DNA of 64,000 bases from Cronobacter malonaticus LMG 23826. Its GTDB lineage: Bacteria; Pseudomonadota; Gammaproteobacteria; Enterobacterales; Enterobacteriaceae. The notes under the pieces were generated by a model. That model was not told where the DNA came from, made no database searches, and was given only the letters and a program-made list of their open reading frames with translations. The translations under genes were made by a program, and so were the position numbers. The stretch spans positions 372,001-436,000 of the forward strand of contig NZ_CP013940.1 in the NCBI RefSeq assembly GCF_001277215.2, in the 5' to 3' direction. Numbering within the stretch: position 1 is the first letter of the stretch; the number at the start of each line of letters is the position of its first letter. Below, piece after piece: positions 1,651-62,132 of the stretch.

Positions 1651-2790
1651 CTATGCGTCGCGCGGTAAGCCTTTCTCAATCACCCTGACCAGCCGCTGTT
1701 TCTGCGGAAGCTGCACTTCCACCACGCAGGCATTACGTTTGTCTGTTTGTTGCGCAATCGCCCAGTCAATATGCTCATCAAGAAGTGGGTGCTCACCTTT
1801 GCGCTGCCGCAGCGCCGTAATATTCGCTTCGTCCCAGGGCGCGTTGCCGAGCGCGACCGCGATATTACGCAGCCAGCGTAAGTGGCCAATGCGGCGAATC
1901 GCCGATCCTTCCGTGACTTTCAGAAAGTGCGCTTCGCTCCAGCTAAACAGTTCAATCAGCTTCGGCGCGTGCAGCGACTTGCGTGGGCTGAAATCTGCTT
2001 CATCGGTGAGCTGTGAAAAACGGTTCCACGGGCAAATCAACTGGCAGTCGTCGCAGCCATAAATGCGGTTGCCCATCAGCGGGCGAAACTCTTCAGGGAT
2101 CGCGCCTTCAAGCTCAATGGTCAGATAGGAGATGCAGCGGCGCGCATCGACCGTGTACGGCTCGACAATTGCGCCGGTAGGGCAGATGGTCATGCAGGCC
2201 ACGCAGCGCCCGCAGCCTTCTTCTACAGGCTTATCCACCGGTAACGGCAAATCCACCAGCAGTTCGCCAAGAAAGAAAAACGACCCGGCGTCGCGGCTTA
2301 AGATCAGCGAATGTTTGCCGGTCCAGCCGAGGCCCGCTTTTTCGGCGAGCGGGCGCTCAAGGATGGGCGCGGAGTCGACAAAAGGTCTAAAATTCAGCGA
2401 CGCGCAATGCTGTTGCAGCGTTTCGCCGAGTTTTTTCAGCCGGTTTCTCAAAAGCTTATGGTAATCGCGCCCCAGGGCGTAACGGCTTACGTAGCCGAGC
2501 GAGGGATCTTTCAGCGTGCTGGCAAACGCTGCATTGGCAGGCAGATAGTTCATGCGCACGCTGATAACGCGCAGCGTGCCGGGCAGAAGTTCGTGCGGGC
2601 GCGCGCGCAACATACCGTGACGCGCCATCCACTCCATCTCGCCGTGATACTGTTTATCCAGCCACGCCTGTAATGCGCCTTCGCTGGCGCTGAGATCGGT
2701 ATCGGTAATACCGACCTGCTGGAAACCAAGCTCGGCACCCCATTGTTTAATTTTTTGCGCTAACTGATTGAGATCGAGGGGTTCAGACAT
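1651..2790 (-). CDS. queG: Epoxyqueuosine reductase QueG
   Basis: A cobalamin- and Fe-S-dependent reductase that converts epoxyqueuosine to queuosine in tRNA. From the ATG at 2790 ([12 protein letters not shown]) it is 379 aa, the E. coli length; seven further in-frame residues upstream are probably untranslated. Two ferredoxin-type cluster motifs are visible: CGRCVACMTICP, and CDDCQLICPWN with an upstream RRC. The C-terminal part corresponds to the HEAT-like tRNA-binding region. The start codon overlaps the nnrD start on the opposite strand. Confidence 0.96.
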   Translation of the reverse strand: MSEPLDLNQLAQKIKQWGAELGFQQVGITDTDLSASEGALQAWLDKQYHGEMEWMARHGMLRARPHELLPGTLRVISVRMNYLPANAAFASTLKDPSLGYVSRYALGRDYHKLLRNRLKKLGETLQQHCASLNFRPFVDSAPILERPLAEKAGLGWTGKHSLILSRDAGSFFFLGELLVDLPLPVDKPVEEGCGRCVACMTICPTGAIVEPYTVDARRCISYLTIELEGAIPEEFRPLMGNRIYGCDDCQLICPWNRFSQLTDEADFSPRKSLHAPKLIELFSWSEAHFLKVTEGSAIRRIGHLRWLRNIAVALGNAPWDEANITALRQRKGEHPLLDEHIDWAIAQQTDKRNACVVEVQLPQKQRLVRVIEKGLPRDA

Positions 2791-4318
2791 GACGGACCAC
2801 GGGATGAACAAAAACGACGCCAGTATACCACACTCCGTCTGGCCCGCAGACTGGCTGCGTACGGCGGAGCGCGAGGCGGCGGACAGCCTCGGGCTGACGC
2901 TCTATGAACTGATGCAACGCGCGGGCGATGCGGCGTTTCAGGTGGCGCGCGCGGCGTATCCGCACAGCCAGCGCTGGCTGGTGCTATGCGGCCACGGCAA
3001 TAACGGTGGCGATGGTTATGTGGTAGCGCGTCTGGCGCAGGCGGCGGGCATTGAGGTGACGCTGCTGGCGCTGGAGAGCGACAAACCGTTACCGGAAGAG
3101 GCGCAGGCCGCGCGCGAGGCGTGGCTTAACGCAGGCGGTGAAATCCATGCGCCGCACACGCCGCTGTCGGAGACGTGCGATCTGATTATCGACGCGCTAC
3201 TCGGCACCGGGCTTTCTCAGGCTCCACGCGAGAACGTCGCCACGCTGATTGAACAGGCGAATAAACATCCTGCGCCCGTGGTGGCGCTCGATATTCCATC
3301 CGGCCTGCTGGCGCAAACCGGCGCTGCGCCGGGCGCGGTCATTCATGCCGCGCACACCGTGACGTTTATTGCGCTGAAACCGGGCTTGCTTACCGGCCGC
3401 GCCCGTGACGTCGTCGGGCAGCTGCATTATCACGCGCTGGGGCTTGAGGCGTGGCTTGCCGGACAACAGGCACCGTATGCGCGCTTTGACGAAACGCAGC
3501 TCTCCCGCTGGCTCCGGCCGCGCCGTCCTGGTTCGCATAAAGGCGATAACGGCAAGCTGGTGATTATCGGCGGCGATCATGGCACTGCTGGCGCTATCCG
3601 GATGACCGGCGAGGCGGCGTTGCGTGCGGGCGCAGGCCTGGTGCGAGTACTTACTCGCGCGGAAAACATCGCGCCGCTGGTGACTGCACGTCCGGAACTG
3701 ATGGTGCATGAGTTGACCCTCGACGCGCTCGACGCCAGTCTGGAGTGGGCCGATGTGGTGGTTATCGGGCCGGGGCTTGGGCAGCAGGAGTGGGGAAAAT
3801 CGGCACTGGCGAAAGTGCGCCAGTGCGACAAACCGATGTTGTGGGATGCGGACGCGCTGAACCTTCTGGCAATCGCTCCCGATACCAGTCACAATCGCAT
3901 TCTTACGCCGCACCCCGGCGAGGCCGCGCGGCTGCTTAACCGTAGCGTGGCAGAAATTGAGAGTGACCGCTTACTTAGCGCCAGAGAGCTGGCGCAGCGC
4001 TACGGGGGTTGCGTGGTGCTGAAAGGCGCGGGAACGGTGGTAACAGGGCCGCAGGACGAATGCGGCATTATCGATGTCGGTAATCCTGGCATGGGTACGG
4101 GCGGCATGGGCGACGTGCTTTCCGGTATTATCGGCGCGTTGCTGGCGCAGGGGCTTAGCCTTTTTGATGCCGCCTGCGCGGGCAGCGTGGCGCACGGCGC
4201 GGCGGCCGATGCGCTCGCGCAGCGCTTTGGCACGCGCGGCATGCTGGCGACCGATCTGTTTTCCACGCTCTATCGTTTTGTTAACCCGGATATAGACACA
4301 GACCAGAATCATGATTAA
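2789..4318 (+). CDS. nnrD: Bifunctional NAD(P)HX epimerase / ADP-dependent NAD(P)HX dehydratase
   Basis: Repairs hydrated NADH and NADPH. The 509-aa protein (start MTDHGMNKN) fuses an N-terminal YjeF_N epimerase domain ([14 protein letters not shown] motif, roughly residues 70-85) to a C-terminal ribokinase-like ADP-dependent dehydratase domain. The latter shows [27 protein letters not shown] and [15 protein letters not shown]. The ATG at 2789 is preceded by GAGGGG. Its 3' end overlaps tsaE by 8 nt, which suggests coupled translation. Confidence 0.96.
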
Positions 4319-4769
4319 TCGCGTAATACCTTTACCCGAAGAGCAGGCCACCCTCGATCTTGGCGCACGCGTGGCGCGTGCCTGTACCGGCGCAACCGTC
4401 ATCCATCTGTATGGCGATTTGGGCGCAGGAAAAACCACATTCAGCCGTGGTTTCCTGCAGGCGTGTGGTCATCAGGGCAACGTGAAAAGCCCGACGTACA
4501 CGCTGGTAGAGCCTTACACGCTGGAAAACAGAATGGTCTACCACTTCGATCTCTATCGTCTGGCCGATCCGGAAGAGCTGGAGTTTATGGGCATCCGCGA
4601 TTACTTCACCGACGATGCCATTTGCCTTGTTGAGTGGCCACAGCAGGGCGCGGGCGTGTTGCCGCCGCCCGATATTGAAATCCACTTGTCATGGCAGGAT
4701 CAGGGGCGTGAAGCGCGGGTAAAAGCGGTCTCCGCCGCCGGCGAAGCGCTGCTGGCCCGCCTCGCCTGA
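4311..4769 (+). CDS. tsaE: tRNA threonylcarbamoyladenosine biosynthesis ATPase TsaE
   Basis: The ATPase partner of TsaB and TsaD in making the t6A modification at position 37 of ANN-decoding tRNAs. The protein is 152 aa with a Walker A motif GDLGAGKTT (residues 35-43), the conserved [10 protein letters not shown] segment and HFDLYRL. The gene starts inside the end of nnrD and is followed 16 nt later by amiB. Confidence 0.96.
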
Positions 4770-52396: not shown

Positions 52397-52412
52397 ACTC
52401 GTCCTTCCCTGA

Positions 52413-52436
52413 AACCACGCTCCGGCGTGGTTTTTT
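52413..52436 (+). terminator. Rho-independent terminator of the tamA-tamB-ytfP operon
   Basis: The stem AACCACGC / GCGTGGTT with loop TCCG is followed by TTTT. Confidence 0.92.
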
Positions 52437-52816
52437 ATTATCTGTAGTTTAATTAAAGGTGTTTTTTAATGGATGTTAATTGTCTTTTATTGATTCTGTC
52501 GCCGACGGAAATGATAAAAATTGAGTGACCATGAATTGATAAAAAATGTTATTTCTTAAAGCTTTTTAAATTGTCTCGTTGGTGTGTTTTTATTTTATTT
52601 TTCAGTCGTTTAAATCAAGCCCACGCATAATGCTAATGCTGTTCTTTTTTTAGAATTTATATCCCTTGCTGCAATCCCGCCGTAATCCTAAAATTCTCGC
52701 GAATCCAACGGCTGGTAAATATAAAGAGCACTATATATTAATTTAGTGAATTTTATATTCAATCACGTTGGAAAGAGTTAGTAAGGAACCGTTTTAATTT
52801 TACTCAAGGAAATAAC
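52437..52816 (+). promoter_or_regulatory. AT-rich control region upstream of the fimbrial operon
   Basis: A 380-nt AT-rich stretch with no credible gene, very different in composition from tamB. It contains an imperfect palindrome CACTA-N10-TAGTG (52729-52748) close to the expected promoter and several T- and A-tracts that suit H-NS binding. I see no GATC sites for a Pap-type Dam/Lrp switch, no long inverted repeats bracketing a promoter, and no recombinase gene nearby. The RBS AAGGAAATAAC precedes the first gene. Confidence 0.6.
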
Positions 52817-53350
52817 ATGAAATTCAGCAAAGTTTCTCTGGCAGCGGCAATGGGTTTAATGCTGGCAGCAGGTATGGCTAACGCGAAAGATCAGGGCCAC
52901 GGCAAAGTCACTTTCACCGGTTCTATCATTGATGCGCCGTGCTCCATTAACCCGGACAGCATCGATCAGACCGTGAAAATTGGTGAGATTTCTAACGTGG
53001 CGCTGAAAGCCAATGGCAACACCGGCACTTCCGTACCGCGTAACTTTGAAATCAAGCTGGAAAACTGCGATGTCTCCACGCTGAAAACCGTGAAAACAAC
53101 CTTCACTGGCGCAGAAGGCGCTATTGATGGTTCTCTGGGTATCACCGGTACAGCAAAAGGCGCGAGCCTGATCCTGACCAACGGTGACGGTGAGCAGATC
53201 AAACTGGGCGAAGCGTCTGAAGCGCATGAACTGCAGGAAGGCTACAACACCCTGCTGTTCTCCGCATACCTGCAGGGCGACGGTGCGTCTGCAACCATCA
53301 CCCCGGGTGATTTCACTGCCGTTGCTGATTTTACGCTGGCTTACGAGTAA
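52817..53350 (+). CDS. Major fimbrial subunit (MrpA/PapA-like)
   Basis: The structural pilin of a chaperone-usher fimbria, 177 aa. Signal peptide MKFSKVSLAAAMGLMLAAGMANA is followed by GHGKVTFTGSIIDAPCSI. The disulfide pair C42 and C84 and the penultimate tyrosine (FTLAYE) needed for chaperone binding are present. Being first, with a terminator straight after it and well-adapted codons, it fits the most abundant subunit. Confidence 0.92.
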   Translation: MKFSKVSLAAAMGLMLAAGMANAKDQGHGKVTFTGSIIDAPCSINPDSIDQTVKIGEISNVALKANGNTGTSVPRNFEIKLENCDVSTLKTVKTTFTGAEGAIDGSLGITGTAKGASLILTNGDGEQIKLGEASEAHELQEGYNTLLFSAYLQGDGASATITPGDFTAVADFTLAYE

Positions 53351-53370
53351 GTTTTAGCGTTAGCGGGCAA

Positions 53371-53402
53371 CATACGTCCGCGTAAGCGGACGTATGATTT
53401 TT
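53371..53402 (+). terminator. Intra-operon terminator after the major pilin
   Basis: The perfect 11-bp stem CATACGTCCGC / GCGGACGTATG with loop GTAA is followed by ATTTTT. It lies between the first and second fimbrial genes, so it should let only part of transcription reach the assembly genes. Confidence 0.88.
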
Positions 53403-53422
53403 CCCTTCCAGAGACGGATCTC

Positions 53423-53986
53423 ATGACCAGATTCACGTGGTATGCGATGGCCCTGGCCCTCGGAACGGTAGCCTGTTCCGTACACGCATCGCAACAAACC
53501 ATCATGCTTAACTCCGAATTTGATATGGGGTTAAACGGGCGAGTGAGTATGCAGGGCGCGATTGTGTCTAAAGCCTGCGATATCGCCATGGAGAGTCGTT
53601 ATCAGTCAATCGAAATGCCGGATGAGTCAGTCAATATTATCAGGCGTACCGGAGAAAGCATTGCGCAGCCGTTTTCGATTCATCTGGTTAATTGCACTTT
53701 TGATACTGGCGAGCCAGACAGCGCACCGTGGCAATTCTTACAAATTAGTTTTGATGGTGCTAATGATGATGGACTCTTTCAGGTTAATGGGACAACAGGC
53801 GGTGTAGCACTGGAGATTGCCAGTAAAAATGGTGAAGAAATTCATCCTGGGCAGCCACAACCGTATACCGAAATCGCAGGCGACGATATTAAACTGGATT
53901 ATGAATTACGCCTTAAAGTTAATCACGAAGATTTACGACCAGGCGCTTATTCCTCGATTATTAAATATCGCATCGATTATTTTTAA
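53423..53986 (+). CDS. Minor fimbrial subunit, PapH/MrpB-like
   Basis: A 187-aa exported pilin-fold protein with signal peptide to about residue 23 (SVHA-S), SMQGAIVSKACDIAMES and the C52/C91 pair. It ends KYRIDYF rather than with the usual penultimate tyrosine. Its position directly after the major pilin and before the usher is that of PapH, which ends and anchors the rod. Function is inferred from order and resemblance. The second half is more AT-rich than the first. Confidence 0.8.
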   Translation: MTRFTWYAMALALGTVACSVHASQQTIMLNSEFDMGLNGRVSMQGAIVSKACDIAMESRYQSIEMPDESVNIIRRTGESIAQPFSIHLVNCTFDTGEPDSAPWQFLQISFDGANDDGLFQVNGTTGGVALEIASKNGEEIHPGQPQPYTEIAGDDIKLDYELRLKVNHEDLRPGAYSSIIKYRIDYF

Positions 53987-54047
53987 CCAATACCTTTTAT
54001 TGATGATTGTTTCTGACAGAGATTGCCCGTAAACCGGCAAAAGAGAA

Positions 54048-56558
54048 ATGGCCAGACTACATAATAAACAAGCCACAATATCAAAACTGATCGTGCCGTC
54101 AGCATTGGCTTTATGCATCTGCGCGTGTTTACGGACTCCCGCAATGGCTGCGGATGATATTCAGTTCAATACCGATGTGTTAGATGTTAAAGACAAACAA
54201 AATATCGATTTAAGCCAGTTTTCAAAGCGCGGCTATATTATGCCGGGCAATTACGATTTCAAAATTAAAATTAACCAGAATGAACTGGAAGAACAGCCGG
54301 TCAGCGTATTTACTGCTGAAAATGATAAAACACAATCGGTTGTCTGTTTTACGCCAGAGCAGGTTAAAAAATTCGGTTTTAAAGAAAAATACCTGACGCA
54401 GTTCAAAAGCTGGCATAACGGCCAGTGTATAGATGTCATGGCGCTTAAAGGTGTGGAAGTCACGCCGGATCTTGGCAGCGGTATGCTGCTGCTGAGCGTG
54501 CCGCAGGCGTACCTGGAATATACCTCAGATGACTGGGTACCGCCGTCAATGTGGGATGACGGTATTCCTGGATTCATTGCGGATTATAACGTCAACGCCC
54601 AGGCGCGTCATAACGAAGGCGATCGGAGCGGTGATGATAATTCAGTGTCTGGTAACGGTACTGTAGGTGCCAACTTCGGGCCGTGGCGTCTGCGCGCCGA
54701 CTGGCAGGCGAACTACGATTCGCAGTCAGAAAACAGCAGCACTCAGAAAAAATGGACGTGGAGTCGGTTTCAGATGTACCGCGCTCTGCCGAAAATGGGC
54801 GCGAAGCTGACCGTCGGCGAAGACTACATGAATTCGGATCTCTTCGACAGCGTGCGTTTTGCGGGTGCAAGCGTGGTTTCAGATGACAATATGCTGCCGC
54901 CGAACTTGCGTGGTTACGCGCCGGAAGTGACCGGCGTGGCGAAAACCAACGCCAAGGTCACTATTTCGCAGCAGGGTCGCGTGATTTATGAAACGCAGGT
55001 GGCGGCAGGGCCGTTTTCGATTCAGGACCTGAACAACTCTGTCGCAGGCGCGCTGGATGTTCGCGTCCAGGAGCAGGATGGCTCGGTGCAGGAATATAAA
55101 GTGAACACCGCGTCTATTCCTTATCTGACGCGCCCTGGCAGCGTACGTTACAAAATGTATGCCGGGCAGCCCAGTACCTACGATCACCATAGCGAAGGCA
55201 GCGGTTTTGGTTCTGGCGAATTCTCCTGGGGCGTCAGCAACGGCTGGTCGCTTTATGGCGGTCTGGTGGCGAGCCGCAACTACCTGGCCACGGCGCTGGG
55301 TGTAGGGCGTGATCTGATGGCGATAGGGGCACTGGCTTTTGACATCACCCGTTCCGGCGCGAAGCTTGATGACGGTGAAGATAAACACGGTCAGTCTTAT
55401 CGTGTGAGTTATTCAAAGCGCTTTGATGATACCGGAAGCCAGGTAACCTTTGCGGGTTATCGCTTCTCGGAAAAAGACTTTATGAGCTTTAATGATTATC
55501 TGAATTATCAGGCAGATAACGGCGATTTTATGCAGAGTAAAGAGATGTATACCGTCTCTTTCAGCCAACAGTTTAAGAGCATTGGGCTGAGCGCATACCT
55601 GAACTATTCGCATCAGACCTACTGGAATAATCCGGCGGAAGATCGCTACAGCCTGTCGCTGTCGCGTTATTTCGATATCGGGAAGGTGAAAAACATCAGC
55701 GCGTCGCTGACGGCGTACCGCAACAAATTTAACGGTCAAAATGACGACGGCATGTATGTGTCGATGTCCGTCCCGATGGGGGATACCGGCTCTCTGGGTC
55801 TTAACTCCTCCTTTAACGGTAATGCCAGTAACCACAGCCTGAGCTATTTCGACAGACTTAAGAATGGCGACAACTACCGCATTGCCGCGGGTGGCAGTGA
55901 TGATGGCGGTAACCTGAGCGGCTATTACGACCATATGGGCGACCTGGCGGAAGTGAGCGGAAACGTGGATTACCAGCATGGCCAGTACAGTTCAGCAGGG
56001 GTCTCACTGCGAGGCGGGATGACGGCGACAGCCAAAGGCGCTGCGCTGCACCGCTCGAATGTCATGGGTGGTAGCCGCGTACTGCTGGATACCGGCGATG
56101 CTGCGGATATTCCGGTGCAGGGTTATGCCAGTACCACCACGACCAACCATTTTGGCAAGGCAGTGGTGACGGAAGTCAGTGACTACAGCAAAAACAGCCT
56201 GAGCATTGATATCAACCATCTGCCGGAAAACGCAGAAGCGTCTGCCTCGGTAGTCCAGGCCACGCTGACCGAAGGGGCTATTGGCTATCGCAAGTTTAAT
56301 GTGATTTCCGGCATCAAGGCGATGGCGATTATTCGTCTCGCGGATGGCAGTTTCCCGCCGTTCGGTGCCAGCGTAATGAACGCCGAAAAACAGGAGGTCG
56401 GCATCGTCAATGACGAAGGCCAGGCTTACCTGAGCGGCCTGAAACCGGGCCACAAATTACAGGTTAACTGGAACGGTGCCACGCAGTGTGTCGTCACGTT
56501 GCCAGAGAAACTGCAAGGGACGAGCGAGAACGGAAATCTGCTGTTGCCGTGCCATTAA
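54048..56558 (+). CDS. Fimbrial outer-membrane usher protein
   Basis: An 836-aa usher of the PapC/MrpC type that accepts chaperone-pilin complexes and extrudes the fibre. The signal region (about 1-35) is followed by PapC_N (FNTDVLDVKDKQNIDLSQFSKRGYIMPGNYDFKIKIN), a 24-strand barrel with plug (GFVxDY-like PGFIADYN, RGYAPEVTGVAKTNAKVTISQQG) and C-terminal domains (PPFGASVMNAEKQEVGIVNDEGQAYLSGL). The end carries a cysteine pair (TQCVVTL...LPCH). Confidence 0.95.
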   Translation: MARLHNKQATISKLIVPSALALCICACLRTPAMAADDIQFNTDVLDVKDKQNIDLSQFSKRGYIMPGNYDFKIKINQNELEEQPVSVFTAENDKTQSVVCFTPEQVKKFGFKEKYLTQFKSWHNGQCIDVMALKGVEVTPDLGSGMLLLSVPQAYLEYTSDDWVPPSMWDDGIPGFIADYNVNAQARHNEGDRSGDDNSVSGNGTVGANFGPWRLRADWQANYDSQSENSSTQKKWTWSRFQMYRALPKMGAKLTVGEDYMNSDLFDSVRFAGASVVSDDNMLPPNLRGYAPEVTGVAKTNAKVTISQQGRVIYETQVAAGPFSIQDLNNSVAGALDVRVQEQDGSVQEYKVNTASIPYLTRPGSVRYKMYAGQPSTYDHHSEGSGFGSGEFSWGVSNGWSLYGGLVASRNYLATALGVGRDLMAIGALAFDITRSGAKLDDGEDKHGQSYRVSYSKRFDDTGSQVTFAGYRFSEKDFMSFNDYLNYQADNGDFMQSKEMYTVSFSQQFKSIGLSAYLNYSHQTYWNNPAEDRYSLSLSRYFDIGKVKNISASLTAYRNKFNGQNDDGMYVSMSVPMGDTGSLGLNSSFNGNASNHSLSYFDRLKNGDNYRIAAGGSDDGGNLSGYYDHMGDLAEVSGNVDYQHGQYSSAGVSLRGGMTATAKGAALHRSNVMGGSRVLLDTGDAADIPVQGYASTTTTNHFGKAVVTEVSDYSKNSLSIDINHLPENAEASASVVQATLTEGAIGYRKFNVISGIKAMAIIRLADGSFPPFGASVMNAEKQEVGIVNDEGQAYLSGLKPGHKLQVNWNGATQCVVTLPEKLQGTSENGNLLLPCH

Positions 56559-56597
56559 GGCACGGCGGTAAACCGATTAACTAAAAGGTCATTCATA

Positions 56598-57356
56598 ATG
56601 TTCACCATGAAAAAAACGGTTTTCGCAGCTGCGCTGGCACTGACTGGCGTACTGACAACCCAACAGGCTTTTGCGGCTATCGCCCTCGATCGCACCCGTG
56701 TCGTCTATAACGGTGGTGAAAAATCAATTAGCCTGAGTATCAGCAATGAAAACAAAAATCTGCCTTATCTTGCACAAGCCTGGATTGAGGATGCGCAGGG
56801 TAACAAGATTACATCGCCACTGAACGTGTTGCCGCCGGTACAACGTATAGAAGCAGGCGCGAAAAGCCAGGTAAAAGTACAGGCCTCTCCTGCGCTGGCG
56901 TCTCTGCCGCAGGATAAAGAAACCCTGTTCTATTTTAACCTGCGTGAAATCCCGCCCCGTAGCAATAAACCGAACACGCTGCAAATCGCGCTGCAGACCC
57001 GCATCAAGCTGTTTTATCGCCCGGCGGCTATCGCATTGGATCAAACCGAGGCGGCGACAGGAGACTGGGTGGAGAAAGTCACACTGACGCGCCAGGGTGA
57101 TAAATTTGTCGTGAATAACCCAACGCCGTATTTCCTGACTATTGTTGAAGGCGCGGCCAGCATTAAAGGCAAAGCGGTAGCTTTTGAGCCGGTGATGGTC
57201 AGCCCGAAAGGCAGCGCGACGATTGAAGCATCTGCGTCTCTGTTCGGCAATAGTCCGGTACTGACCTACGTCAACGATTACGGCGGCCGCCCGCATCTGC
57301 AGTTCAGCTGTAACGGTGCCTCCTGCACAGCGAAGCTGCTGAAAGAGAAAAATTAA
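56598..57356 (+). CDS. Periplasmic fimbrial chaperone
   Basis: A PapD-like chaperone of 252 aa. Signal peptide to about AFA-A (residue 27), then IALDRTRVVYNGGEKSISLSI with the conserved Arg, and the family signature LFYFNLREIPP followed by LQTRIKLFYRP with the conserved Lys; these two basic residues anchor the pilin C-terminus. Two cysteines near the end (FSCNGASC) resemble the PapD disulfide. A second ATG three codons in (56607) is farther from the RBS AAAGG. Confidence 0.95.
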   Translation: MFTMKKTVFAAALALTGVLTTQQAFAAIALDRTRVVYNGGEKSISLSISNENKNLPYLAQAWIEDAQGNKITSPLNVLPPVQRIEAGAKSQVKVQASPALASLPQDKETLFYFNLREIPPRSNKPNTLQIALQTRIKLFYRPAAIALDQTEAATGDWVEKVTLTRQGDKFVVNNPTPYFLTIVEGAASIKGKAVAFEPVMVSPKGSATIEASASLFGNSPVLTYVNDYGGRPHLQFSCNGASCTAKLLKEKN

Positions 57357-57377
57357 CCGGACGGCAAAGGAATCGTG

Positions 57378-57953
57378 ATGAAAAGGATTACTCAACTGAT
57401 TGTGGCGGGTGTCACGCTCACCGTCATGCTGCCCGTGTTTGCAGATGAATCTGTTTCTGCCGATGGTGGCGAACTCTATGTACACGGTGTACTGCGTGAA
57501 AACACGTGTCGGCTGGAGATGGATTCCGCCTGGCAGGATGTCGATCTCGGTGACACCGCGCGTGCAGAGGTCAGCCTGGTCGGTAAGCAGGCGAAGCCCG
57601 TTACCGTTACGCTCTACCTGCGTGACTGCCCGCAGATCCCGACGCGCAGCGCCAACATTACGCCGCTGACGCATTCTCGCAGCTCGCAGCAGCCTGGGTA
57701 TCAGGCGCGGTTTGTCGCAGCGACAGATGCCTTTAATCCGGACCTTATTCAGGTCACCGGGTCTTCCGGCATCGGGTTACGTCTGAAAGACAGCCGTGGA
57801 CAGACGGTAAAAATGGCGCAACAGGGAGACACAGTACTGTTAAACCCAGGCCAGGACAGCGTGACCTATACGCTTCAGGCTGAGCGTACCGCTGCCGCTT
57901 TTGTACCAGGGCCTTACCATGCGCTGATCCAGTTCAGCATGATGTATCAGTAA
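57378..57953 (+). CDS. Minor fimbrial subunit (MrpE-like position)
   Basis: A 191-aa exported pilin-domain protein. Signal peptide to FADE (about residue 22), GGELYVHGVLRENTCRLEM, the C44/C84 pair, and the end YHALIQFSMMYQ with the penultimate tyrosine. The ATG at 57378 is preferred over the GTG just before it because of spacing to AAAGGA. Its base composition is close to the host average, unlike the next four genes. Confidence 0.85.
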   Translation: MKRITQLIVAGVTLTVMLPVFADESVSADGGELYVHGVLRENTCRLEMDSAWQDVDLGDTARAEVSLVGKQAKPVTVTLYLRDCPQIPTRSANITPLTHSRSSQQPGYQARFVAATDAFNPDLIQVTGSSGIGLRLKDSRGQTVKMAQQGDTVLLNPGQDSVTYTLQAERTAAAFVPGPYHALIQFSMMYQ

Positions 57954-57961
57954 GGATAAAC

Positions 57962-58456
57962 ATGACGATTTATAAATGGTGTGGAGTTGCCTTACTGCTT
58001 GCCTGTTGCAGCAGCAGCGTTTTTGCAGATGAGAACTCTGTATTAATCACTGTCAGCGTCACCATTAATACCGCACCATGTGAGATTAATAACAATCAAA
58101 ACATCGATGTTAATTTTGGTGACAATGTAATTACCACCGATGTTATTGCTGGTCTGGTAGAAAAGGTAATCAATTATACGCTTGACTGTAGCAATGCTGA
58201 TACTGCAAAAACTTTAAAAATGCATATAACAGGTAATGGTGCAGATTTTAATAGTGATTTGCTGCAAACCAGTATTCCGGAGCTTGCAGTCAAACTTAAA
58301 GCTGATGGTTCCGATTTTCCTCTTAATAGCGATCTTACGCTTGCCTCTACTACAGAAAAACCTGTGCTGGTGGCAGCCCTGGTTGGCAAACCCGGAGCAC
58401 GTTTACCGACTGGTGAATTTACGGCTGGCGCAACGATGACGGTAGATTATCAGTGA
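57962..58456 (+). CDS. Minor fimbrial subunit (MrpF-like), first of a tandem pair
   Basis: A 164-aa exported pilin-domain protein, AT-rich. Signal peptide to VFAD (about 22), then VTINTAPCEINNNQNIDVNFG, the C40/C76 pair and the end MTVDYQ. It resembles the next gene in both sequence and cysteine spacing (36 residues), with INYTLDC here against INYTIDC there, so the two look like an old duplication. Likely an adaptor near the fibre tip. Confidence 0.85.
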   Translation: MTIYKWCGVALLLACCSSSVFADENSVLITVSVTINTAPCEINNNQNIDVNFGDNVITTDVIAGLVEKVINYTLDCSNADTAKTLKMHITGNGADFNSDLLQTSIPELAVKLKADGSDFPLNSDLTLASTTEKPVLVAALVGKPGARLPTGEFTAGATMTVDYQ

Positions 58457-58935
58457 AAATGTTAATAAAAATTCTGGGCCTAACAGTGTTACTACCAGCA
58501 TGTGCCCTCTGCGCTGAAAATATGTCTTTCCACGGCACGCTGGTGGCACCACCTTGTAAAATTAGTAACGGGCAAACTATTGAAGTCACCTTTGGCAACG
58601 ATCTGGGTGTCAACAAAATTGACGGCAATAACTACAAGCAACCGATAAATTATACGATAGATTGCGATGCCGGTTATACCGCTAATAATCTGGCCATTGT
58701 GGTCGATACTACCAACCCCGCGTTGTTTGATAGTGCTGCGGTGATGACCGATAAAACCGGGCTCGGCATCCGTATTCTGGTAGACAGCCAGCCCGTCACG
58801 TTTTCTCAGCATGTAGCGGTCATTAACCCGGCTTCGCCACCGAAAATAGAAGCGGTCCCGGTGCAGGATCAAAGTATCACCCTTACGGAAGGTGCGTTTG
58901 AGGCCACGATGACCCTTCGCGCAGATTATCTTTAA
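58453..58935 (+). CDS. Minor fimbrial subunit (MrpF-like), second of a tandem pair
   Basis: A 160-aa exported pilin-domain protein. Its GTG start overlaps the preceding stop codon (GTGA), so translation is probably coupled; an ATG two codons later (58459) is the alternative. Signal peptide to CALCA (about 21), then FHGTLVAPPCKISNGQTIEVTFG, the C35/C71 pair and the end TLRADYL. Confidence 0.83.
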   Translation: MKMLIKILGLTVLLPACALCAENMSFHGTLVAPPCKISNGQTIEVTFGNDLGVNKIDGNNYKQPINYTIDCDAGYTANNLAIVVDTTNPALFDSAAVMTDKTGLGIRILVDSQPVTFSQHVAVINPASPPKIEAVPVQDQSITLTEGAFEATMTLRADYL

Positions 58936-58944
58936 GAGGCAATA

Positions 58945-59475
58945 ATGAAACGTAATCATTTTCTGCTGGGGATATTATTTTTTATTACGGTATCAACAAA
59001 TATTTTTGCTGCCGAGGATAATATACATTTTTCAGGTGCGCTTGTAGCTGAGCCTTGTAAGTTACCGGACGCGGATACTGATATTCATCTGGACTTCGGT
59101 ACGGTTATTGAAAAATATCTATATCAATACCAGCGAACGAAAAGCCAACCTTTTTCTATTCATCTGAATGATTGTGACCCTTCATTGATGAACTCGGTTA
59201 GCGTTATGTTTCAGGGAACAGCTGATACAGAACTTACCCAGATGCTAGCACTTGATACTTCCAGTACAGCAAAGGGAGTGGCTATTGGATTGGAACTTAA
59301 GGATGGTACTCCGTTAGCCGTTAACAAGTCTAGTCCTTTTACAGAGCTTACTCAGGGAAACAATACGCTAGATTTTAATGCTTATGTACAAGCGCAGCCA
59401 ACAACCATCGTCAATAAAACATTAGTTGCGGGCGACTTTACAGCCATTAGTACTTTTATACTGGCGTATCAATAG
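58945..59475 (+). CDS. Minor fimbrial subunit (MrpG/PapE-like)
   Basis: A 176-aa exported pilin, strongly AT-rich. Signal peptide to FAAED (about 23), IHFSGALVAEPCKLPD, the C38/C77 pair and the end STFILAYQ with penultimate tyrosine. The second half follows the layout of the major pilin (KGVAIGLELKDGTPLAVN, then TELTQGNNTLDFNAYVQ), so it may form part of the tip fibrillum. RBS AAGAGGC. Confidence 0.85.
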   Translation: MKRNHFLLGILFFITVSTNIFAAEDNIHFSGALVAEPCKLPDADTDIHLDFGTVIEKYLYQYQRTKSQPFSIHLNDCDPSLMNSVSVMFQGTADTELTQMLALDTSSTAKGVAIGLELKDGTPLAVNKSSPFTELTQGNNTLDFNAYVQAQPTTIVNKTLVAGDFTAISTFILAYQ

Positions 59476-59600
59476 TCCGAAATTTGGATGGGGAAACCCT
59501 CACTATTTTTATTTATGGATTATACGATGCTGTAAAATATTTATTTTACTGAAATGCTAAATTTCTTTATTGCGCCAACGACATTTCATAAGGTATCTCC

Positions 59601-60419
59601 ATGTTAAAGTTTTTAAATTTTAAAGGGGTGGTGAAAATCCCCTTTTTGGTATTGTTGATTTTCCCGGTAGTTAGTATCGCGGGAAAGTGGCCAGTGGCTG
59701 TAACCATTAAAAGTGAATACGTAGGTTCTGGTGGAGCAGGTGGCCAAAAATGGCGTTACTATATTACGCAAAGATTGATTGAAGTAGGCAGTTCAGTTGA
59801 CGTCGTAATGCCAAATAATTATGTAATGCTAACGCATAGACATGATCCTACTGGTAAAGATGAAGTAGGGTTACCATCCGTATATGAAGCAACGGATTCC
59901 AAAAAAACTATCAGCCAGATAGCTGTGGATTTATATAATTCTCAAGGGAAAAATGTAACCTATCTTGAACATACAGGATTAGATCCGACAGGAGAAGAAT
60001 GTGTCGGTTATCTTGTAAACAAAACACATGGTGATTATAGCCCCTGGAGTGGCGCATTTGTTCCTGGAGGGTGTCTCATTGTTCCTCCTGCTGACGATTG
60101 GTGCAAGATTACTACGCCAGAAATAGTTCTTGAACACGGGAATATTTTGTTAAAAGACGCAGAGGGGCATTCAGCTCGTTCTAGTTTTAATGTGACATGC
60201 GTTTCGCCAACAGCTGTAAAATTTAATTTAATCACTAATGACAACTATGTTTACCTTGATGAAGGAAAGTCTTTAATAACCATTGATGAAAAACCTTTGA
60301 ATACAAAAATTGATTTGCCAGAAGGAGATTCTACGTGGTCAATAAAGGATATGCTCACAGGTATGACTACTGAAGGTTATCACACCGGTAGCAGTGTATT
60401 GGTAATGATGCCGTATTAA
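59601..60419 (+). CDS. Putative fimbrial tip adhesin, MrpH-like
   Basis: A 272-aa exported two-domain protein, the last gene of the operon and the most AT-rich. Signal peptide to about residue 27. The N-terminal receptor domain (about 28-165) contains H79 and H81 (THRH) and H124 (LEHTG). The spacing of 2 and 43 residues equals that of the zinc-binding histidines I recall for Proteus MrpH (72, 74, 117). The C-terminal pilin domain has the C168/C200 pair; C134 and C158 may form a second disulfide. A 125-nt AT-rich gap precedes it. Ligand unknown. Confidence 0.8.
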   Translation: MLKFLNFKGVVKIPFLVLLIFPVVSIAGKWPVAVTIKSEYVGSGGAGGQKWRYYITQRLIEVGSSVDVVMPNNYVMLTHRHDPTGKDEVGLPSVYEATDSKKTISQIAVDLYNSQGKNVTYLEHTGLDPTGEECVGYLVNKTHGDYSPWSGAFVPGGCLIVPPADDWCKITTPEIVLEHGNILLKDAEGHSARSSFNVTCVSPTAVKFNLITNDNYVYLDEGKSLITIDEKPLNTKIDLPEGDSTWSIKDMLTGMTTEGYHTGSSVLVMMPY

Positions 60420-60448
60420 GTTATGGATGAAGGTGTAAAATATTTACA

Positions 60449-60479
60449 ACAGGGAAAGGTTCGCCTTTTCCTGTTTTTT
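60449..60479 (+). terminator. Terminator of the fimbrial operon
   Basis: ACAGGGAAAGG pairs with CCTTTTCCTGT (one G-T) around loop TTCG and is followed by TTTTT. Confidence 0.88.
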
Positions 60480-60515: not shown

Positions 60516-62132
60516 ATGAAACGTTTCCTTTTTTTACTCCTGCTCTGTTTAACGCTGACCTATATCCCCGGCTCCGGCGGATCAGGTGTCACGCTACCCT
60601 ATAACCTGACGTTTCTCGGCTGGCTGGGAATTATTCTTTTACTGTTCGCGCTAAATAATCTCTGGCAACAGCCTCAGCGCCAACCGCTGTTATTCTGTGG
60701 CGGCCTGTTACTGCTGTTACCCTGGCTTGTCCAGATGCGTGGCAACCCCGGCGTATTCGTGTTGCTGGGTGCACTTCTTCTCTGGCAGTTATTGCTGCGC
60801 TTGCCGTTCACAGGCGGCCATAAAAAAGCCATACTGCTGGCGATAGTTATTCTGGCGCTGGCGCAGGCACTTATCGGGTTACTTCAGACTTTCTTCCCCC
60901 ATCTCGCCATGCAGCTTTATGAGTATAACTGGCTGCGTAATTACGGCCGCCCTTACGGTATTTTCCAGCAGGTGAATCTGCTCGCGAGTTCTCTCGCCTC
61001 CGGCATCGGCTGCGGCTTTTTACTGCTGATGCAACAGCGTCTGCGCAGGAATGTGCTGCTCTGTATCTCCGGGCTGAGCCTGCTGACGTTTGTGCTGGTG
61101 CTGAATCAGTCCCGCGCTGGCGAAATCGGCACGATATTGATTGTCCTGTGCCTCGCCGCGCTGCTGTGGCGTCAGCACCCGGCGCGCAGCGTGGCGGCGT
61201 TAACACTGATGATGATATGCGCAGCGTCAGCCTGGTACATCACGCAGCATACGACGGTGCTGGTTAACGGCATGCCCTATTCACTGGCGCGTGAGTATGC
61301 CGGTTCCACTCATGCCCGGTGGCAGATCCTGTGCATCACCTGGCAGATGATCATGGAAAAACCGTGGCTCGGCTGGGGTTATGGCACCTTTGAATATGCG
61401 TTCAGCCGCTTTGTGTTGGCGCACCCGGAACAGGGTTACACTTATTCCAGCATCGTCACCCACCCTCATAACGAACTGCTTTACGCCTGGTTCCAGGGCG
61501 GCGTGGTGGCGCTTTCAGGAATGCTTTTACTGTTCGCGGGTTGGGTGAAAATCGTCATTGCCGCCTGGCGGCAGGGTCGTGTGCAGTCAGGCTACGCGCT
61601 GCTGATTATTCCGCTGCTGGTGCACCTCAATCTGGAATATCCGTTTTACCAGTCGTTTGTGCACTTCGGGCTGTTTATCCTGCTGCTGCGCCTCGGCGTT
61701 ATCGATAAACCGCATAGCCAGACACAGCGCGCAAAGGTGAGCCTGCGTGTGACGATCGGCGCTGTGGCGCTTGCGCTGCTGGCTTTTAGCCTGACGGCGC
61801 TCTGTGCCGGTTATCAGCTCACGATGCTTGAGCGCGGCCATCTGGCGAATTTCCCGCGGCCTGCGCCGTGGTATTTCGCGCTACAGGGCGAACGGGCGGA
61901 ATTTGATGAAAACGTGTCGCGGCTGATCGACTACAACCACACCCATAACGAAGCCGATCTAGACACATTTATGACCTGGGCTGCGCGCTATTCGCTGCGT
62001 CATAACGACAAAAATGTCTGGCAGAGTATGATCGTGATTACGCAATCAAGAGGCGATATCGTCGCCACAGCCCGTCTGCGCACACAGTACAATCGCCTGT
62101 TTCCTGTTGTTCAAACCAGCGATTCGCCGTAA
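60516..62132 (+). CDS. PglL-like O-oligosaccharyltransferase / O-antigen ligase family protein
   Basis: A polytopic inner-membrane protein of 538 aa with about 11-12 TM helices. Motifs include GRPYGIFQQVN (144-154), NQSRAG (197-202) and the periplasmic-loop THPHNE (315-320) whose histidine is characteristic of the Wzy_C superfamily. A soluble C-terminal part (about 430-538) corresponds to the Wzy_C_2/PglL extension, which favours protein O-glycosylation over LPS ligation. The substrate is unknown. It stands alone between the fimbrial terminator and a chemoreceptor, and a target could be the neighbouring fimbria or a type IV pilin elsewhere. Confidence 0.82.
   Translation: MKRFLFLLLLCLTLTYIPGSGGSGVTLPYNLTFLGWLGIILLLFALNNLWQQPQRQPLLFCGGLLLLLPWLVQMRGNPGVFVLLGALLLWQLLLRLPFTGGHKKAILLAIVILALAQALIGLLQTFFPHLAMQLYEYNWLRNYGRPYGIFQQVNLLASSLASGIGCGFLLLMQQRLRRNVLLCISGLSLLTFVLVLNQSRAGEIGTILIVLCLAALLWRQHPARSVAALTLMMICAASAWYITQHTTVLVNGMPYSLAREYAGSTHARWQILCITWQMIMEKPWLGWGYGTFEYAFSRFVLAHPEQGYTYSSIVTHPHNELLYAWFQGGVVALSGMLLLFAGWVKIVIAAWRQGRVQSGYALLIIPLLVHLNLEYPFYQSFVHFGLFILLLRLGVIDKPHSQTQRAKVSLRVTIGAVALALLAFSLTALCAGYQLTMLERGHLANFPRPAPWYFALQGERAEFDENVSRLIDYNHTHNEADLDTFMTWAARYSLRHNDKNVWQSMIVITQSRGDIVATARLRTQYNRLFPVVQTSDSP

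Follow-up and report, generated by a model that had tools for sequence, protein, structure and literature searches.

A predicted zinc-dependent, MrpH-like adhesin at the tip end of a Cronobacter malonaticus fimbrial operon, and its relatives with and without the zinc site

The closest described counterpart of the protein considered here is MrpH of Proteus mirabilis (PDB 6Y4E, 6Y4F; PF24222/PF24223), a two-domain adhesin encoded by the last structural gene of the MR/P fimbrial operon. According to the main text of its structural description (PMC7444556), MrpH holds zinc through H72, H74 and H117, with copper excluded by electron paramagnetic resonance (EPR). Two crystal structures show carboxylates bound at the fourth, open zinc position; N82 and R118 lie beside the metal, and their loss impairs biofilm formation, the R118A variant performing no better than the vector control (PMC7444556). 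The same text calls the C60-C66 disulfide of MrpH highly conserved, and reports the three histidines to be strictly conserved across 16 organisms, so that metal binding was proposed as likely in all MrpH-like adhesins. Cronobacter goes unmentioned in that main text; searches of open-licence papers returned a single Proteus phage paper for MrpH together with Cronobacter, and the 2020 MrpH paper alone for MrpH-like or metal-dependent adhesins. The fimbria described from Cronobacter itself, the pi-fimbria (GR9; cluster 8, Ctu_36390-450), was classed as a pi-class homologue of the P pilus and, among the Cronobacter compared, is missing only from C. sakazakii BAA-894 (PMC3680222, PMC3500316); the term 'mrp' is absent from the main texts of both reports. 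Here we examine a window of 64,000 nucleotides from Cronobacter malonaticus LMG 23826 (contig NZ_CP013940.1, positions 372,001 to 436,000), whose operon at 52817-60419 is probably that described as pi-fimbriae. The gene at 59601-60419 encodes an MrpH-like adhesin with counterparts of all three MrpH zinc ligands (H79, H81 and H124); the protein would probably cap an MR/P-type fimbria and bind a single zinc ion there to grip its partner.

The open reading frame (ORF) lies on the + strand, encodes 272 amino acids and is the final gene of the fimbrial operon, exactly where an earlier note on this DNA had placed it. Its parts, and the hairpin that follows it, are:

59601-60419, + strand: two-domain MrpH-like adhesin, predicted tip subunit, 272 aa
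59667-60089, + strand: N-terminal receptor domain, residues 23-163 as compared here
59835-59843, + strand: codons of H79-R80-H81, holding predicted zinc ligands 1 and 2, aligned with MrpH H72-K-H74
59970-59972, + strand: codon of H124, the third predicted zinc ligand, aligned with MrpH H117
59997-60002, + strand: codons of E133-C134; E133 tracks the histidine triad and C134 is aligned with MrpH C128
60090-60416, + strand: C-terminal pilin domain, residues 164-272
60448-60475, + strand: terminator-like hairpin 3' of the adhesin gene, with a 12-pair stem and T tail (consensus match only)

Histidine occurs at positions 79, 81, 124, 143, 179, 190 and 261 of the adhesin, and the first three reproduce the 2 / 43 spacing of the MrpH ligands. 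This spacing had been recognised previously, and the MrpH numbering behind it agrees with both the published description and the P. mirabilis record. We do not count the equal 43-residue gap as evidence by itself: the second gap varies among relatives that keep the triad (P0050 has H63/H65/H111), so the numerical match is partly luck and it is the aligned positions that count. In the alignment the three histidines stand in register with those of MrpH, and E133-C134 with E127-C128. The only cysteines of the N domain are C134 and C158, columns in which cysteine is present in 88/88 homologues; aligned with C128 and C152 of MrpH, they point to a C134-C158 disulfide. After MrpH C152 comes the linker GIAPPP; the adhesin has LIVPPA at this place, with two of the three prolines retained.

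Homology to MrpH was assessed at the level of sequence, profile and predicted fold. The adhesin is 28% identical to MrpH over residues 71-271 (E 9e-9) and 22% identical to an MrpH paralogue (E 3e-10); its closest named homologues are C. dublinensis proteins (73-77%). For comparison within the family we used a set of 88 rows, made up of the window protein and homologues P0002-P0088; P0001, a near-copy of the window protein, was left out. The N-domain profile of those rows that carry all three histidines aligned with MrpH at 97.5% (hhalign, E 7e-12), against at most 0.7% for controls that included the tip proteins of loci L057 and L058. When the four site columns were masked on both profiles the alignment still scored 91.7% (E 8e-7) and the masked columns faced each other, so the correspondence of the triads goes beyond chance. 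Structure prediction with fold comparison, a step proposed in the earlier note, gave an MrpH-like fold for the N domain. Together these lines bear out the MrpH-type N domain and the homology of the zinc-site histidines. The C domain is predicted to have a PapG-like pilin fold, and it is of the same chaperone-binding domain type as that of PapG. The N domain, for its part, has a profile match to MrpH; full-length PapG matches align via the pilin domain (residues 167-272), and those given by Foldseek have an rmsd of 11.5 and 17.5.

Across the 88 rows the triad is common and not universal. All three histidines are present in 63 rows, two in 1, one in 7 and none in 17. The expected invariance holds for the closest homologues, P0002-P0031, all of which have the triad, and fails among more distant ones, where 25/88 rows lack the complete set on a similar C-terminal domain. 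The C domains of these 25 rows are 58-71% identical to that of the window adhesin. Between the triad and triad-less groups, mean identity is 65% for the C domains and 27% for the N domains. Both states occur within single species, going by the names given in the source: present in P0002, P0003, P0023 and P0046 and absent in P0061 and P0086 for C. dublinensis, P0050 and P0060 respectively for C. turicensis, and P0029 and P0070 for C. muytjensii. A protein named C. malonaticus by its source, P0055, is also triad-less. The triad-less N-domain profile aligns with that of the triad group at 100% (hhalign, E 5e-46) and with MrpH at 79.5%. The predicted model of P0055 has a pLDDT of 83.4 and 6y4f is absent among the 50 matches listed in either fold search; sequence profiles are what tie this protein to the triad group. 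Zinc-dependent adhesion is thus probably an optional rather than a fixed trait of these proteins.

One further residue moves with the triad. Among the 63 triad rows, N-domain identity averages 40% with a minimum of 23%, and 11 N-domain columns are invariant. The triad group was selected by its triad, so the histidines are among these columns by selection; E133 is not. E133 is present in 63/63 triad rows (64/64 with P0001) and in 1/25 of the others; no other N-domain column, the histidines apart, is filled throughout the triad rows and almost missing outside them. It is aligned with E127 of MrpH, and E133/E127 can now be tested as a fourth member of the zinc site.

Metal binding by the adhesin is, in our judgement, very likely, and zinc-dependent adhesion as stated above is likely. 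By analogy with MrpH, Zn(II) would be held tetrahedrally by H79, H81 and H124, with the fourth position free for a receptor carboxylate, and E133 may support the site as a second-shell residue. Placement at the tip would come about by donor-strand exchange at the PapG-like pilin domain, a neighbouring pilin supplying the strand that completes the C domain; donor-strand completion of pilin domains is the established chaperone-usher mechanism. The two prolines of the linker may set a hammerhead angle, as in MrpH.

Several observations weigh against this interpretation. Firstly, the adhesin scores 20.7 bits against Pfam MrpH_N (PF24222; E 5.5e-4), below the gathering cut-off of 27 and far from the 191 of MrpH; we therefore call it MrpH-like and not MrpH in Pfam's sense. 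PF24222 is reached at E 0.001 by 22 of the 88 alignment rows and at 0.01 by none of the 25 triad-less rows, and the label is carried, precomputed, by homologues P0009-P0014. A profile search of the PDB reached 6y4f at E 0.13 only and a single-sequence PDB search returned PapG entries only; it is therefore from profile-profile and fold comparisons that the structural link is drawn. Secondly, unlike MrpH, the adhesin has no counterpart of C60-C66, and it carries V89 and T125 where MrpH has N82 and R118; from these substitutions the receptor is expected to differ from that of MrpH. Triad rows also differ widely at the position following H124 (S, T, G, N and others). Thirdly, the coupling of E133 to the triad provides few independent events: the C-domain tree yields 3 well-supported pairs (median p 0.25) and the N-domain tree 1, too few for significance. 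Partial triads (the 7 rows with one histidine and the row with two) indicate that loss is not strictly all-or-none, and selection on the triad may simply have relaxed. Finally, the tip position of the adhesin is predicted by analogy.

The alternative that survives best holds that the metal is a structural staple, stabilising the N domain in place of the C60-C66 disulfide, while a glycan or protein ligand is bound on variable loops. The absence of that disulfide from an adhesin that keeps the triad, and the poor conservation of the zinc-flanking positions, would fit such a role. MrpH and its near relatives possess both disulfide and triad, however, so that one has not simply replaced the other, and the carboxylate-binding open position of MrpH, together with the failure of R118A in biofilm formation (PMC7444556), counts against a purely structural role. 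A close cysteine pair in this part of the N domain is found only in P0073, P0086 and P0087 of the 25 zinc-less rows, and most of these rows have neither disulfide nor triad. We regard the staple as unlikely.

Zinc-dependent adhesion also competes with the idea that a metal other than zinc, such as copper or nickel, fills the site in the cell, or that filling is conditional and the adhesin senses metal. Three-histidine sites bind several divalent metals, which counts for this idea, and nothing in the window ties expression to zinc: a search for a Zur-like zinc-regulator box gave one match with 3 mismatches where 0.61 were expected, no more than chance. On the other side stands MrpH, which with the same ligands is zinc-loaded, copper being excluded by EPR (PMC7444556), and we consider this idea improbable. 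That the three histidines are an inherited leftover, the receptor being bound without metal as in the zinc-less relatives, is very improbable: a fimbria evidently works or at least persists without the triad, as the 25 triad-less rows on a similar pilin domain attest, yet a leftover should erode residue by residue, whereas here the three histidines and the glutamate are for the most part present or missing as a set, and the triad is retained between N domains down to 23% identity.

How often the site has changed state was judged on trees of the two domains, both built from few columns and with many open forks. The C-domain tree needs 10 changes of label, 3 of them forced by well-supported branches; on the N-domain tree 8 changes are needed and only 1 is forced. 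Samples outside the 88 rows extend the picture. In a family sample the adhesin profile matched in 36/392 genomes. A set of 39 proteins was drawn from loci of the family matches (not all of them), a Citrobacter locus, six PF24222 loci and P. mirabilis, without the two window rows and one partial MrpH duplicate; the triad is present in 21, all with the glutamate (21/21), and missing from 18, none with it (0/18), although near-identical pairs are included and the 39 are thus not independent. Six proteins over the MrpH_N cut-off (L064-L069) have both MrpH cysteine pairs and no complete triad, with CYVGPDVKY, for example, where MrpH reads CYVTVNHKH; that of L068 retains the first histidine. The N domains of these six align with MrpH at 99.5% and with the Cronobacter-type triad group at 0.9% (hhalign). 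At the level of the order, PF24222 matched in 6/394 genomes and exceeded its cut-off in 5/394, a count that is not a prevalence because the family and usher samples hold strong MrpH relatives in genomes unlisted there.

A sample of ushers covered 60 loci in 60 genomes outside Cronobacter, mostly higher-scoring places and so not random, with 3 regions ending at contig ends. A gene matching the MrpH-type profile was found at 23/60 loci, several of the weakest (14-27 bits) possibly through the pilin half only. Triad and EC motif occur together in 8 of the 23, and the full three histidines in 0/15 of the others. Of two scans of genome contigs, the first gave no confirmed locus and the second a single one, Citrobacter L004, whose adhesin has no triad, and E. 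coli genomes gave no near match to the adhesin. As far as sequence can tell, triad and triad-less states are both found on both sides of the superfamily; the simplest reading is that an ancestral site was lost at least twice, two gains being less likely. The proposal that all MrpH-like adhesins bind metal is not borne out by this larger sample.

Some other occurrences are of separate interest. In G389 (L061, reverse strand; coordinates 2190-4741 once the locus is turned) the usher beside a triad-bearing MrpH-like adhesin is broken into two ORFs that overlap, and the cell may therefore fail to make this fimbria. G342 holds a second MrpH-like copy (L021, 2530-3348) with the triad present and an odd, shortened C-terminus. 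Distant adhesin relatives, annotated as hypothetical, occur on Serratia plasmids (H3-H17; 28-29% identity over 54-72% of the length), and Serratia accounts for 15/18 of the plasmid records matched.

Within Cronobacter, the tip end of the operon varies between genomes. The usher is found in 7/7 Cronobacter genomes searched, with 88-91% identity in the six besides that of the window, and the MrpA-like pilin is 92-94% identical in the same six. The adhesin profile, by comparison, matched in 2/7. The earlier suggestion that a metal-dependent adhesin class extends to this genus would therefore apply to the genome of the window and one other rather than to the genus as a whole. The two MrpH-like adhesins are 45% identical to each other and the adjoining ushers 91%; a protein encoded by G005 shares 256/260 letters with one named C. 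turicensis by its source. The five genomes without an adhesin match keep pilins A and B, usher, chaperone and the 57375-type pilin, and differ at the tip end. In G001, G002 and G003 that end holds a two-domain protein of 314 aa, whose C domain is Fimbrial and whose N domain has no Pfam match:

L057, 7793-8737: 314-aa tip protein
L058, 2900-3844, reverse strand: 314-aa tip protein
L059, 2923-3867, reverse strand: 314-aa tip protein

In G004 the tip gene (L060, 5905-6561) scores 54 bits for Pfam MrkDrd, a receptor domain of the MrkD type, and is truncated by an insertion that, from its end sequence, we take to be IS1-like; the 57375-type pilin of this genome appears as two overlapping ORFs. G006 (L056, reverse strand) has no adhesin ORF, the ~320 bases between its MrpG-like and ligase genes being too short for one, and its usher is 91% identical. 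A YtfP-type gene upstream of the operon is 96-100% identical in all six other genomes. Downstream, the ligase-type gene reaches 65-78% identity in four of these genomes and 32% in the remaining two, L058 and L059, and the chemotaxis receptor after it is found in the same four genomes and not in the ~1.2 kb remaining in L058 and L059. The GC content of the operon's last two genes is 39.7% and 38.9%, against 56.8% window-wide. Judged from these sequences, the shaft is conserved and its tip end has the look of an exchangeable module, with the zinc site as one alternative. Presence of the operon tells little about what a Cronobacter cell sticks to; its last gene must be read.

A more general model can be formulated, for and against which we see the case as evenly balanced. 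The MrpH-type tip domain would be a receptor-reading platform on which the unit of three histidines and a glutamate is switched on or off, largely as a block and independently at least twice, once on the MrpH side and once on the Cronobacter side. The Cronobacter tip would be an exchangeable cassette, with single species holding zinc and zinc-less alleles on the same shaft. If this is true, such alleles constitute a natural experiment on what the zinc binds. That MrpH-like proteins occur across Enterobacterales is already known; what is new here is the missing disulfide and receptor residues, the triad-linked glutamate, the existence of natural sister proteins without the zinc site, and a tip that changes between genomes. 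Natural versions with and without the zinc site also offer a direct route to the ligand that requires metal.

The fimbrial operon as a whole occupies 52817-60419 on the + strand and encodes a major pilin, an MrpB-like pilin, usher, chaperone, four minor pilins and the adhesin. Its products were compared with P. mirabilis H63, in which the names mrpA-G were assigned by gene order, the record being unannotated there, and MrpH was identified through the residue numbers of PMC7444556. The genes upstream of the adhesin are:

52817-53350, + strand: MrpA-like major pilin (52.8% to MrpA over 178 aligned positions; Pfam Fimbrial)
53423-53986, + strand: MrpB-like pilin (28.7% to MrpB; no Pfam match at E 1)
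54048-56558, + strand: outer-membrane usher, MrpC-like (52.2% to MrpC; over cut-off for Pfam Usher, PapC_N and PapC_C and for NCBIfam NF011812)
56598-57356, + strand: periplasmic chaperone, MrpD-like (62.7% to MrpD; PapD_N, PapD_C)
57375-57953, + strand: extra minor pilin (Pfam Fimbrial; top MR/P-region match weak, 22.8%)
57962-58456, + strand: MrpE/MrpF-like minor pilin (33.1% to MrpF, 36.2% to MrpE)
58453-58935, + strand: MrpF-like minor pilin (43.5% to MrpF)
58945-59475, + strand: MrpG-like minor pilin (39.3% to MrpG)

The MR/P-like layout seen earlier is thus upheld by matches to MrpA, B, C, D, F and G, and departs from its model in three respects. The Cronobacter operon has the extra minor pilin at 57375-57953. 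No MrpJ-like helix-turn-helix gene follows the adhesin, the next gene on the same strand being of O-antigen-ligase type (60516); in L003 a helix-turn-helix gene, which we take to be mrpJ, stands after MrpH. No recombinase adjoins the operon, whose two upstream genes encode GGACT (YtfP-type) and TamB proteins; the rest of the genome was not searched for one. MR/P fimbriae have an invertible promoter, and a search of 52397-52830 for an element of this kind found short inverted repeats only. One of them, a perfect 10-base repeat at 52546-52555 / 52809-52818, ends at the start of the mrpA-like gene, and its 253-base separation is similar to the size of the MR/P element; we judged it to be chance in AT-rich DNA. 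The gene at 60516-62132 encodes an O-antigen-ligase/PglL-type protein, over cut-off for Wzy_C and Wzy_C_2 and with a weak PglL_A match; it may act as an oligosaccharyltransferase and decorate the fimbria. A homologue of it (30%) also adjoins an MrpH-like adhesin in another genus (L062).
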